DNA of 37,274 bases from Streptomyces sp. LS1784. GTDB lineage: Bacteria > Actinomycetota > Actinomycetes > Streptomycetales > Streptomycetaceae. Where the stretch lies: contig NZ_JAHSQD010000023.1 of NCBI RefSeq assembly GCF_020103755.1, positions 1 through 37,274 on the forward strand. The letters are read 5' to 3'. Positions 10,099 to 13,664 of this stretch are shown here, one piece after another. Every line of letters begins with the position of its first letter. Position 1 is the stretch's first letter. The notes under the pieces are model-generated. The model did no database searches. It was not told where the DNA came from and was given only the letters and a program-made list of their open reading frames with translations. Both the position numbers and the translations under genes were made by a program.

Positions 10099-10755
10099 TT
10101 ATTCGGACTTGCCCTCTTCCGCCTTCTTGCGGTCCTGGGCCTCGCCCTCCTCGATGACCGCCTCGGCCACCGCCGCCATCGTCATCCGACGGTCCATCGA
10201 GGTCTTCTGGATCCACCGGAAGGCCGCCGGCTCGTTCAGCCCGAACTTGGTCTGGAGCACACTCTTCGCCCGGTCCACCAGCTTCCGGGTCTCCAGCCGC
10301 TGGCTGAGATCCCCGATCTCCTTCTCCAGCGCCCGCATCTCCGCGTACCGGGAGACCGCCATCTCGATCGCCGGCACCAGATCCGACTTCGAGAACGGCT
10401 TGACGATGTACGCCATCGCCCCGGCGTCGCGGGCCCGGTCCACCAGCTCCCGCTGCGAGAACGCCGTCAGCATCAGCACGGGGGCCAGGTGCTTCTCGTG
10501 GATCTGCTCGGCGGCCGAGAGCCCGTCCAGCACCGGCATCTTCACGTCGAAGATCGCCAGATCCGGCTTCAGCTCCTCCACGAGCCGCACCGCCGTCTCC
10601 CCGTCGCCGGCCTCACCGACGACGGTGTACCCCTCCTCCTCCAGCATCTCCTTCAGGTCGAGGCGGATCAGCGCCTCGTCCTCGGCAATCACAATCCGGG
10701 TGATCTGGGGCATATCGGTCTCAAGCGGCTGCGCCTGCTCGTCGGCGGTGCTCAC
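10099..10755 (-). CDS. pdtaR: Response regulator with C-terminal ANTAR RNA-binding domain (PdtaR-like)
   Basis: A 218-residue two-component output protein. The receiver domain (about 18-135) has the acidic pair E25-D26, phospho-acceptor D70 (LAIFDVKMPVLDG), T97 and K119 (YIVKPF). The C-terminal part (about 145-210) matches the ANTAR fold: an RLETRKLVDRAKSVLQTKFGL helix, then AFRWIQKTSMDRRMTMAAVAEAVI. ANTAR domains bind paired hexaloop hairpins in mRNA and cause antitermination, so this protein probably acts on RNA rather than DNA. The chosen GTG at 10755 has GGAG four bases upstream (AGGAGCCCCGTG); the frame stays open to 10785 but lacks a better site. The partner kinase is not in the window. 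Confidence 0.9.
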   Translation of the reverse strand: MSTADEQAQPLETDMPQITRIVIAEDEALIRLDLKEMLEEEGYTVVGEAGDGETAVRLVEELKPDLAIFDVKMPVLDGLSAAEQIHEKHLAPVLMLTAFSQRELVDRARDAGAMAYIVKPFSKSDLVPAIEMAVSRYAEMRALEKEIGDLSQRLETRKLVDRAKSVLQTKFGLNEPAAFRWIQKTSMDRRMTMAAVAEAVIEEGEAQDRKKAEEGKSE

Positions 10756-10851
10756 GGGGCTCCTAGTTCCGGCGGGGTACTGCATGCACGAGGGTACCTA
10801 GACACGGTATGTTTGAGACACGACGCCAAGGCAATCGCCTTCAAATCGTAG

Positions 10852-10926
10852 GCCCCGATAGCCCAATTGGCATGAGGCAATGGTCTCAAACACCATACAG
10901 TGTGGGTTCGAATCCCACTCGGGGCA
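10852..10926 (+). tRNA. tRNA with CAA anticodon (tRNA-Leu), class I body
   Basis: All arms fold by hand. The acceptor stem is 7 bp, GCCCCGA/TCGGGGC (10852-10858/10919-10925), with discriminator A73. The D-arm has a 3-bp stem and GG in its loop. The anticodon stem is ATGGT/ACCAT with loop CTCAAAC, giving anticodon CAA at 10887-10889, which reads UUG. The variable loop is only 5 nt (ACAGT). The T-arm is GTGGG-TTCGAAT-CCCAC. CCA is not fully encoded (ACCT). The anticodon is leucine, yet bacterial tRNA-Leu normally has a long class II variable arm; this one has none. Confidence 0.9.
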
Positions 10927-10973
10927 CCTTTCCTTCGATTCGAAGGTTTCAGTATTCGGTCCAACGGTTTTCA

Positions 10974-11017
10974 AAACTAGGGGATCTTCACTCGACCGAG
11001 TGAAGATCCCCTAGTTT
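10974..11017. terminator. 20-bp perfect hairpin between the tRNA and the LAGLIDADG gene
   Basis: AAACTAGGGGATCTTCACTC (10974-10993) and GAGTGAAGATCCCCTAGTTT (10998-11017) are perfectly complementary around a 4-nt loop. The A/T ends (AAAC...GTTT) give a short U-run on either strand, so it can serve as a bidirectional terminator. It would end the tRNA transcript and separates it from the downstream gene. Confidence 0.75.
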
Positions 11018-11056: not shown

Positions 11057-11830
11057 GTGTACGACACCGCGACACGCCAGCGGGCATTGAAGCTCCACGC
11101 ATCCGGGCTGACCTTCAGCCAGGTCAGCCGTGCGACCGGTATCTCCCGATTCGCGATCCGCGACTGGGCGTCCGGCGCCGTACCCAGCCCACGCATGACG
11201 GCCGAACGCCCGATCCGCGACAACCGACTCGATCCCTCGCGCCCGCCTGCCGACTACGCTTACCTGCTCGGCCTCTACCTCGGCGATGGCTGCATCAGCG
11301 AGGGTCGCCGCCAGGTCTACGCCCTCCGCATCGCCTGCTGCGACACATGGCCCGGCCTCATCGGCGAGTGCGAGCGGGCAGTCTCCACCGTCATGCCGCA
11401 CAACAAGGTCAACCGGGTCCAGGCCCCCGGCTGCACGAGCGTCGTCAGCACCAGCAAGCACTGGCCCTGCCTCTTCCCCCAGCACGGCCCCGGCCCGAAG
11501 CGCCTGCGACAGATCGCCCTCGCACCCTGGCAGCAGGAGATCGTGGACACCCACCCCTGGGAGTTCTTACGCGGCCTGATCCACTCCGACGGCTGCCGCA
11601 TCACCAACTGGGCGACCCGCACGGTCGGCGGCGTCAAGAAGCGCTACGAGTACCCGCGTTACTTCTTCACCAACACCTCGACCGACATCGTCGGTCTCTT
11701 CACCGCCACCCTCGACGCCGTCGGCGTCCAGTGGAAGCACGCCTCCCGGTCCAACGGCGGCTTCAACATCTCCATCGCCCGCAAGGACTCCGTGGCCCTC
11801 ATGGACGCCCACATCGGGCCCAAGTACTGA
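11057..11830 (+). CDS. HTH protein with two LAGLIDADG-like motifs (homing-endonuclease-like)
   Basis: A 257-residue protein from GTG 11057; the ribosome-binding site is weak. Residues 5-40 form a helix-turn-helix of the Hin/transposase type (QRALKLHASGLTFSQVSRAT, then SRFAIRDW). Two LAGLIDADG-type helices follow: LLGLYLGDG (70-78, acidic D77) and FLRGLIHSDG (170-179, acidic D178), with about 100 residues between them. That is the spacing of a single-chain LAGLIDADG homing endonuclease or of its domesticated regulatory relatives. Both acidic residues are kept, so nuclease activity is possible but unproven. Codon 171, inside the second motif, is TTA (11567-11569), the rare codon read by the developmental tRNA bldA; codon 11 is TTG. 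No intein or intron context is seen; it sits directly beside a tRNA. Confidence 0.8.
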   Translation: MYDTATRQRALKLHASGLTFSQVSRATGISRFAIRDWASGAVPSPRMTAERPIRDNRLDPSRPPADYAYLLGLYLGDGCISEGRRQVYALRIACCDTWPGLIGECERAVSTVMPHNKVNRVQAPGCTSVVSTSKHWPCLFPQHGPGPKRLRQIALAPWQQEIVDTHPWEFLRGLIHSDGCRITNWATRTVGGVKKRYEYPRYFFTNTSTDIVGLFTATLDAVGVQWKHASRSNGGFNISIARKDSVALMDAHIGPKY

Positions 11831-12052: not shown

Positions 12053-13483
12053 TCAGACGTCCAGCGTCCCCACGTGGTGGACGCGGACGAGGTTGGTGGA
12101 GCCGGCCAGGCCGGGGGGCGAGCCCGCCGTGATGACGACGATGTCGCCCTTCTGGCAGCGGCCGAGCGAGAGCAGCGCCGCGTCGACCTGTTCGACCATC
12201 TGGTCCGTCGTCGGGGCGAACGGGCCGAGGAAGGTCTCCACGCCCCAGGTGAGGGCGAGTTGGCTGCGTACGGCCGGTTCGTAGGTGAAGGCGAGCACCG
12301 GAATCGGCGAGCGGTAGCGGGTCAGCCGGCGGGCGGTGTCGCCGGACTGGGTGAAGGCGACGAGGTACTTGGCGTGCAGGAAGTCGCCGATCTCGGCGGC
12401 CGCGCGGGCGACGGCGCCGCCCTGGGTCCGCGGCTTGCTGCCGGTGGTGAGCGGCGGGAGGCCCGCGGCGAGGATGTCGGTCTCGGCGGCCTCGACGATC
12501 CGGGCCATCGTCTTGACCGTCTCGACCGGGTACTTGCCCACCGAGGTCTCCCCGGAGAGCATCACCGCGTCCGTGCCGTCCAGGACGGCGTTGGCGACGT
12601 CGGAGGCCTCCGCGCGGGTCGGCCGGGAGGCGTTGATCATCGAGTCGAGCATCTGGGTCGCCACGATGACCGGCTTGGCGTTGCGGCGGGCCAGCTTGAT
12701 GGCGCGCTTCTGGACCAGCGGGACCTGTTCGAGGGGCATCTCCACGCCCAGGTCGCCGCGGGCCACCATGATCCCGTCGAAGGCGTCGACGACGGACTCC
12801 AGGTTCTCCACCGCCTGCGGCTTCTCGATCTTGGCGATCACCGGGACGTGGCGCCCCTCCTCCGCCATGATCCGGTGGACGTCCTCGATGTCCCGCCCGC
12901 TGCGGACGAACGAGAGCGCGATGAGGTCGGCCCCGGTCCGCAGCGCCCACCGCAGGTCGGCGACGTCCTTGTCGCCGAGTGCGGGGACGGAGACGGCGAT
13001 GCCGGGCAGGTTGAGGCCCTTGTGGTCGGAGACCAGGCCGCCCTCGATGACCAGGCACCGCACGTGCGGCCCGTCGACGGCGACGACCTCCAGGGTGACC
13101 CGGCCGTCGTCGACCAGGATGCGCTCACCGCGGGTGACGTCCCCGGCGAGCCCGGAATAGGTGGTTCCGCAGCGGTCCTTGTCCCCCACGACGCCCTTGT
13201 CGGTGGAGATGGTGAACTCGTCGCCGCGTTCGAGAAGTACCGGCCCGTGGGCGAAGGTGTCGAGCCGGATCTTCGGGCCTTGAAGGTCGACGAGGATGCC
13301 GACGCTGCGGCCGGTCTCGTCGGCGGCCTTGCGGACGCGGCGGTAGCGTTCCTCGTGCTCGGCGTGCGTGCCGTGGCTGAGGTTCAGTCGGGCGATGTCC
13401 ATCCCGGCGTCGACCAGGGACTTGATCTGGTCGTACGAGTCGGTGGCGGGCCCGAGGGTACAGACGATTTTTGCTCGGCGCAT
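12053..13483 (-). CDS. pyk: Pyruvate kinase
   Basis: Catalyses phosphoenolpyruvate + ADP to pyruvate + ATP, the last step of glycolysis. With the ATG at 13481-13483 (MRRAKIVCTLGPAT) it is 476 aa, the usual size; an upstream in-frame extension lacks family similarity. Core motifs seen: RLNLSHG near 33, VDLQGPKIR, and the substrate/metal segment IAKIEKPQAVENL with the catalytic lysine. VARGDLGVEMPLEQVP, ATQMLDSMI and TDAVMLSGETSVGKYPVE follow. The C-terminal allosteric domain is complete, ending HHVGTLDV. It is divergent from the SBP/VWA operon, sharing a 313-nt intergenic region. No strong ribosome-binding site precedes either candidate ATG. Confidence 0.96.
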   Translation of the reverse strand: MRRAKIVCTLGPATDSYDQIKSLVDAGMDIARLNLSHGTHAEHEERYRRVRKAADETGRSVGILVDLQGPKIRLDTFAHGPVLLERGDEFTISTDKGVVGDKDRCGTTYSGLAGDVTRGERILVDDGRVTLEVVAVDGPHVRCLVIEGGLVSDHKGLNLPGIAVSVPALGDKDVADLRWALRTGADLIALSFVRSGRDIEDVHRIMAEEGRHVPVIAKIEKPQAVENLESVVDAFDGIMVARGDLGVEMPLEQVPLVQKRAIKLARRNAKPVIVATQMLDSMINASRPTRAEASDVANAVLDGTDAVMLSGETSVGKYPVETVKTMARIVEAAETDILAAGLPPLTTGSKPRTQGGAVARAAAEIGDFLHAKYLVAFTQSGDTARRLTRYRSPIPVLAFTYEPAVRSQLALTWGVETFLGPFAPTTDQMVEQVDAALLSLGRCQKGDIVVITAGSPPGLAGSTNLVRVHHVGTLDV

Positions 13484-13664
13484 AGTGCTGAGACTAGGCA
13501 TTACCGGTGCGTAACCACGACGCGGGTCCGGACTGCGGGATGACCGTTGCCATAAGGCCAGTTGAACAATCTGACACATCCTCGGACCGCTGTGCGAGCG
13601 CCCCTCCCCACGCCCCTCCCGCACGCCCGCCGAGCCACCCGCCGATGCAATTCCGTGAAGGGGT

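Follow-up and report, generated by a model that had tools for sequence, protein, structure and literature searches.

A short-looped class I tRNA-Leu(CAA) in Streptomyces, very probably a genuine leucine tRNA and one of two interchangeable forms

Leucine tRNAs with and without the long arm

In the excerpts consulted of a 2023 review, tRNA-Leu is described as long-armed everywhere except in animal mitochondria, where leucyl-tRNA synthetase (LeuRS)—the human mitochondrial enzyme—accepts a short-armed tRNA (PMC9976931). According to the same excerpts, leucine identity in E. coli rests on A73, A15–U48, G18G19, and A20a, whereas neither the anticodon nor the long arm contributes, and tRNAs without the arm stay active. 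An excerpt of a 2014 review calls the long arm important for synthetase recognition, stated in general (PMC4033280); hence, the print is divided on the arm. Short-armed leucine tRNAs are, as far as the excerpts go, noted in print only in passing. A single sentence is given to a short-loop tRNA-Leu(TAG) from a tRNA cluster of Mycobacterium (PMC6582537), and some Leu, Ser, and Tyr tRNAs of a data set are described as short-armed without being named individually (PMC2265525 and PMC2474678). For six Streptomyces, one CAA tRNA gene each is reported, the arm going unmentioned in the excerpt (PMC4932002). In the open-licence PubMed Central literature, no account was found of a chromosomal short-armed bacterial tRNA-Leu or of an exchange of forms.

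The tRNA gene described herein is located in a window of 37,274 nt—the whole stretch of DNA that was analyzed—from Streptomyces sp. LS1784. It is very likely a genuine, translating tRNA-Leu(CAA) that has a class I body, decodes UUG as leucine, is leucylated by the ordinary LeuRS, and represents one of two interchangeable forms exchanged as a block. With the canonical class II tRNA-Leu(CAA), it shares the site (in sister species), the anticodon, A73, the D-loop elements, and the codon; it differs in having no long arm, in a C13–A22 mismatch of the D stem, and in the sequence of the acceptor and D stems. Animal mitochondrial tRNA-Leu is likewise a leucine tRNA without the long arm, whereas the class I genes are bacterial-chromosomal and phage-borne, form a full cloverleaf, and are not organellar. 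The Mycobacterium tRNA-Leu(TAG) has a leucine anticodon and a short variable loop as well. In the excerpt, it is an extra cluster copy beside a long-armed isoacceptor, whereas the class I CAA tRNA is the only CAA tRNA found in most class I genomes. The dual-identity tRNAs termed tRNA-ProX, which exist in the Streptomyces group according to an excerpt of PMC11415595, resemble it in their unusual combination of body and anticodon and in the bacterial group where they occur. On points other than proline features, they are set apart from the window tRNA by its leucine anticodon set and by a surrounding in which no synthetase gene adjoins it.

Architecture of the tRNA and its locus

ARAGORN calls a single tRNA in the window, a tRNA-Leu(caa) at 10852–10928 of the forward strand, which is the label that the initial annotation had expected annotators to give. 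The general tRNA model of Rfam (RF00005) fits it over the full length (71 of 71 positions, 60.2 bits, E 8.8e-11). Both programs give a variable loop of 5 nt, as opposed to the 10 nt or more of a class II tRNA-Leu. The central claim of the initial annotation, a leucine anticodon in a class I body with a five-nucleotide loop, is thereby borne out, and the covariance search with the general Rfam model reveals no long arm. Its further statement that all stems are intact holds for the acceptor (7 bp), anticodon (5 bp), and T stems (5 bp), which are complete by numbering, and fails for the D stem, in which the fourth pair is the C13–A22 mismatch. The discriminator A73 (position 10926) and the GG of the D-loop (G18G19), both named there, are present; together with A15–U48 and A20a, the tRNA contains all leucine determinants known from E. 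coli. The gene order is pdtaR, tRNA, LAGLIDADG ORF, and pyk (Table 1), where pdtaR is the name that we take to apply to the upstream gene and the downstream ORF is presumably pyruvate kinase, judging from its sequence.

Table 1. Features of the tRNA-Leu(CAA) locus in coordinates of the window
Feature	Coordinates	Strand	Basis and remarks
Response regulator, pdtaR-like (receiver + ANTAR; gene name presumed); conserved upstream neighbor	10099..10785	-	Pfam; adjoins the tRNA at 37/37 same-genus loci
TATGTT, probable -10 element of the tRNA promoter	10808..10813	+	Upstream of the tRNA in 24/24 same-genus class I loci; role presumed from this position
Class I tRNA-Leu(CAA)	10852..10926	+	ARAGORN, Rfam, relatives; of the CCA end, the gene includes the CC (10927-10928) but not the final A
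Positions 8–26 including the D arm, TAGCCCAATTGGCATGAGGCA	10859..10879	+	Sequence, parsed with relatives; A14, A15, G18G19, A20a, C13–A22
Anticodon CAA (reads UUG)	10887..10889	+	ARAGORN; CAA in 30/30 fetched best matches
Variable loop ACAGT, 5 nt, in place of the class II arm	10897..10901	+	Rfam alignment; 5 nt in 135/144 relatives
Inverted repeat of ~20 bp, hairpin downstream of the tRNA	10974..11017	+	Fold; self-complementary match
ORF with N-terminal helix-turn-helix and two LAGLIDADG motifs, predicted homing-endonuclease fold	11057..11830	+	Pfam just under cut-off, motifs, AlphaFold, Foldseek
Presumed pyruvate kinase ORF (pyk), downstream neighbor	12053..13624	-	ORF; tblastn matches in many, not all, related pieces, which often end before pyk

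Conservation in actinobacteria

The relatives comprise 148 class I sequences, 49 from loci chosen otherwise and 99 viral, of which 144 are unique. Among these 144, the stem pairs vary compensatorily, and the tertiary pair 15–48 covaries, being A–U in 130 and G–C in 11. A73 occurs in all of them. The C13–A22 mismatch is common to 139 and hence typical of the family, and A at position 20a to 141, with the D-arm counts being partly selected because the 99 viral rows were preselected on a loose D-arm filter.

The conservation exceeds what chance would give. In a first sample of relatives, 42 of 61 genomes contain matches of the tRNA region (E ≤ 0.001), some only partial; two of the 42 (G003 and G018) match at class II loci. 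The 30 best matches were fetched, and all are CAA tRNAs. Class I CAA tRNAs recur at the pdtaR site across the genus. A class-wide sample of 148 genomes from 82 genera was scanned with a pattern for the class I CAA tRNA; 55 genomes and 32 genera have it, mostly as unfolded pattern matches. Thirteen of these places (12 genomes, eight families) were fetched, and in every case the piece contains both a class I tRNA-Leu(caa) and a pdtaR homologue. The class I tRNA of another family (G059, L051) is 91% identical to that of the window. A UAA version of this short scaffold exists in other actinobacteria (L152, L154, L155, L156, L181, and L184); the fetched pieces of the first four, from other actinobacterial families, gave no pdtaR match. 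With many actinobacteria having a short-armed tRNA as the single CAA tRNA found, the rule of a long arm everywhere but in animal mitochondria, as worded in the excerpts of PMC9976931, would not hold, and annotation models expecting class II could be corrected.

Family f21 accounts for seven of the 55 pattern-matching genomes, and the tRNA in the five fetched (L354–L358) is of a different sequence type. It is a second, distinct class I tRNA-Leu(CAA) adjoining pdtaR, GGCCCGGTAGGCAAATTGGCAAAGCC..., and possibly reflects a separate loss of the long arm. Copies of this type are up to 88% identical in Mycobacterium phages.

The short scaffold in viruses

Phages infecting Mycobacterium, Streptomyces, Enterococcus, and Lactobacillus carry this short scaffold too; BLAST matches, taken unfolded, extend to phages of other hosts including E. 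coli, Erwinia, and Pseudomonas. An anticodon-blind scan of viral contigs with the 19-nt D-arm pattern TAGCCCAANNGGCAGAGGC gave at least 127 sites in at least 120 pieces. ARAGORN calls at least 118 tRNAs with this pattern, and 117 of the 118 among the matches listed have leucine anticodons: UAA (51), UAG (30), CAA (29), CAG (3), GAG (3), and AAG (1). Hence, six leucine anticodons are found on one short scaffold among the viral matches listed, a further exception to the long-arm rule. The remaining tRNA (L306) is called as stop-reading, probably through a shifted loop. Apart from it, no non-leucine tRNA with the D-arm pattern was found among the matches listed, in which the viral pieces carry 860 tRNAs, 193 of them for leucine, and eight D-arm sites are without a tRNA call. 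A longer scaffold pattern gave zero viral matches, probably through wrong spacing. The tRNA-Leu(caa) of phage Gaia is class II.

One site with two forms

In 37 genomes of the genus, the window's own included, pdtaR adjoins a tRNA-Leu(CAA) that belongs to class I in 25 and to class II in 12. The distribution of the two forms is complementary. All 37 other pattern matches in the 25 class I genomes were run through ARAGORN, and further CAA tRNAs are confined to G002 (two of class II) and G012 (one, in a tRNA array). In its own genome, the window tRNA is the only CAA tRNA found. The class I pattern is present in 22 of 33 additional genus genomes, and the other 11 all have a class II CAA tRNA beside pdtaR; in G093, which is among the 22, class II occupies the site and the class I copy lies elsewhere. 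By pattern, a CAA tRNA is thus present in 70 of 70 genomes and both classes in two (G002 and G093). The two forms can occur together, G002 combining class I at the site with its two extra class II CAA tRNAs. Synteny was checked individually at the loci of the 37 genomes, at the 12 of class II among the 33, and in G061 and G066, which have second class I CAA copies. Other families show the same choice beside pdtaR, with class II in, e.g., G037, G045, G049, G050, and G053.

These counts rely on pattern searches because a tRNA list of the genome by Rfam, with 61 matches, was without some expected tRNAs (e.g., His and Leu(UAA)) in the sequences inspected. A scan of a named genome collection, in which near records may be left out, returned seven stretches, none titled as this genus, as opposed to 47 of the 70 genus genomes matching a similar pattern.

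The additional class I CAA tRNAs that G093, G061, and G066 carry outside the pdtaR site (L421, L422, and L424) are nearly identical to each other; the copy of G093 lies near ORFs that are, by eye, thioesterase-like and phosphoesterase-like. The array of G012 (L131/L384) contains class I leucine tRNAs for CAG and GAG in addition to an odd CAA tRNA, and the genome also carries the class I gene at the pdtaR site.

Exchange of the forms as a block

The tRNA class is scattered without regard to kinship, since its changes along two gene trees are close to those of shuffled labels. The pdtaR tree requires 10 changes of class, compared with a shuffled mean of 10.4 (239–250 of 500 shuffles are as low). 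The LeuRS tree, with rows for 30 of the 37 genomes (all 12 of class II and 18 of the 25 of class I), also requires 10, compared with 9.6. In both trees, the window's genome (G000, class I) pairs with a class II genome (G018).

Five class I/class II pairs were aligned in 100-base steps. G000 and G018 are 91 to 100% identical up to ~10,780 and then 40 to 54% over promoter, tRNA, and early ORF; the rest of the ORF follows with 51 to 89%, then an indel, and finally pyk with 93 to 96%. G025 (class I) and G033 (class II) are 93 to 100% identical outside the block and 36 to 52% inside. G002/G024 show a short differing stretch (tRNA 48–49%, ORF 64–82%), and G003/G009 as well as G010/G027 are highly identical only toward pdtaR. 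Two of the five pairs, G000/G018 and G025/G033, therefore show a large block with near-identical flanks on both sides. Since promoter, tRNA, and ORF start differ together in these two, a block of ~0.6 to 1.1 kb has been replaced, as opposed to an arm lost in place. The pdtaR–pyk site holds either a class I or a class II tRNA-Leu(CAA), and species very probably exchange the forms as a block by recombination.

The LAGLIDADG ORF beside the tRNA may drive the exchange. The ORF scores 22.0 bits for Pfam LAGLIDADG_3 (cut-off 22.5). Its motifs are LLGLYLGDG and LRGLIHSDG, wherein G76-D77-G78 and S177-D178-G179 are invariant in 29 of 29 aligned sequences, an alignment from which broken copies were left out. 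The AlphaFold model (mean pLDDT 89.6) matches best to I-Tsp061I in Foldseek (E 5.4e-10), followed by I-AniI and others. Two motifs with the putative catalytic aspartates D77 and D178 and the predicted fold thus point to a homing endonuclease. The ORF occurs in 11 of 15 genomes searched, each time at this tRNA only. No relatives were found in phage and plasmid collections at E ≤ 1e-3. At the 25 class I loci, at least 180 aligned ORF residues in one frame are present at 16, remnants at two, and nothing at seven. Some of the ORF is present at each class II locus (12 of 12) in the 37 genomes, with at least two copies interrupted (G006 and G022); 12 further class II loci have it at 11, G093 being without.

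The chances are about even that the exchange is ordinary homologous recombination via the conserved flanks, with the ORF as a mere passenger. The flanks are highly conserved; nine of the 25 class I loci have the class I form yet no ORF or a remnant only; class II sites without the ORF exist (G093, G045, and G053); and in G002/G024 and G003/G009 much of the ORF is 64 to 86% alike despite a differing tRNA stretch. Against a passenger stand its restriction to this site in the 11 ORF-bearing genomes, the invariance of both motifs, and its tree. This tree (31 rows) follows the tRNA class with six changes compared with a shuffled mean of 10.2 (one to four of 500 shuffles are as low), whereas the tree of the flanking gene pdtaR does not. 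One ORF type consists of ten rows, all class I, and the other of ten class II and six class I rows, and these six inside a mainly class II clade again favor a passenger.

A homing locus is a tentative reading of the same sequences and rather doubtful. Here, a free-standing endonuclease would cut the other tRNA allele, and repair would copy in its gene along with that of a leucine tRNA of different structure that resists cutting; the two classes would then compete as alleles that owe their spread to the endonuclease and not to any demand of translation, and the class I body may have come from phages. Co-conversion of the tRNA would explain both the swaps and the linkage, as would plain recombination with a passenger gene. 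Homing is weakened by G093, G002/G024, and G003/G009, which show that ORF and tRNA form can part. If the endonuclease does drive the swaps, a probably essential tRNA gene would be the payload of a selfish element.

That the long arm was lost in place several times over, giving both forms at the site without any block exchange, is improbable. The f21 type beside pdtaR, with an anticodon stem like that of the class II relative in G053, suggests that separate losses may occur. However, in G000/G018 and G025/G033 promoter, tRNA, and at least the ORF start differ together, with ~36 to 54% identity between flanks of 91 to 100%, and class I tRNAs are alike across families, as in G059.

Decoding and charging

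UUG appears to be read as leucine. In the genes of LeuRS, PdtaR, Pyk, and LivF, leucine-consensus columns hold 35 of the 36 TTG codons of class I genomes and 10 of the 10 of class II genomes, the sole exception lying in a variable N-terminal column. This test alone is no proof of leucine delivery by the window tRNA because a UAA tRNA (bldA type) might also read UUG by wobble. A pattern for the UAA leucine tRNA matches in 34 of the 37 genomes and gave no match in the window's own genome, G002, and G023, which indicates that pattern searches may miss tRNAs.

The window's own genome has one LeuRS above the family cut-off. Between the sister genomes G000 and G018, the enzyme differs in 25 alignment columns over 962 residues, two of the 25 being gaps; hence, nearly the same enzyme would serve both tRNA forms. 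No LeuRS residue separates the 18 class I from the 12 class II genomes (1066 tests, lowest p 0.018), and none tracks the tRNA form convincingly. We infer that LeuRS would accept the class I body with A73 and the D-loop/hinge elements A14, A15–U48, G18G19, and A20a, since the determinants are kept and bacterial LeuRS, in the E. coli work excerpted from PMC9976931, reads neither the long arm nor the anticodon. The initial annotation had started from the view that recognition by bacterial LeuRS normally depends on the long arm; these E. coli data say otherwise, with the general statement of PMC4033280 on the other side. The natural swap of forms in sister species with nearly the same LeuRS makes the true needs of this enzyme directly testable.

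From its premise, the initial annotation had considered poor charging, charging by another synthetase, or a non-translational role. These suggestions find no support: a CAA tRNA occupies the locus in 37 of 37 genus genomes, no class II CAA tRNA was found in 24 of the 25 class I genomes, UUG occurs where leucine is conserved, and leucine anticodons occur on at least 117 of 118 viral scaffolds among the matches listed. The window tRNA is real, conserved, and very probably leucylated, and the suspicion of a degenerate or re-assigned tRNA falls accordingly.

Charging by another synthetase could place a second amino acid at UUG, a programmed mistranslation in the manner of tRNA-ProX. A class I body with a leucine anticodon does resemble a dual-identity tRNA, and such tRNAs exist in the group, as stated in the excerpt of PMC11415595. 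Such mistranslation is nevertheless very unlikely, given that UUG is kept at conserved leucine sites (35 of 36), that 117 of 118 viral scaffold tRNAs among the matches listed have leucine anticodons, and that the leucine determinants are retained. The genes adjoining the tRNA are pdtaR, the LAGLIDADG ORF, and pyk, with no synthetase gene among them. An extra prolyl-tRNA synthetase is the typical neighbor of tRNA-ProX.

Still further down, a pseudogene or a non-translational tRNA—a regulator, an attachment site, or a cell-wall donor—is scarcely credible: the odd architecture and the use of tRNA-Leu-CAA genes as attB by mycobacterial integrases (in the excerpt of PMC10865867) speak for it, whereas the compensatory stem changes, the covarying 15–48 pair, the CAA in 30 of 30 fetched best matches, and the class II tRNA-Leu at the same site in sister species speak against it, and 24 of the 25 class I genomes would then be without any CAA tRNA found, apart from the array copy of G012. 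Searches aimed at the attachment site of phage Omega did not have this site among their matches.

Promoter, leader, and downstream hairpin

A scan for the sigma-70 consensus found no site, the TATGTT upstream of the tRNA included. The leader TATGTTTGAGAC (10808–10822) is complementary to the anticodon arm, probably by chance. Pairing of 10808–10821 with GTCTCAAACA as a means of regulation was ruled out by the variation in relatives, which keep TATGTT (24 of 24) or TATGTTTG (22 of 24), whereas the rest varies.

A scan for intrinsic terminators found none, and no T run was found at the downstream hairpin. A core like TTCACTC..GAGTGA is present within 110 nt downstream of the tRNA in nine of 24 same-genus class I loci. 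The hairpin might mark the end of the transcript, perhaps as a terminator, or might be a candidate binding site of the LAGLIDADG protein. By eye, a similar hairpin core is also seen at some class II loci.
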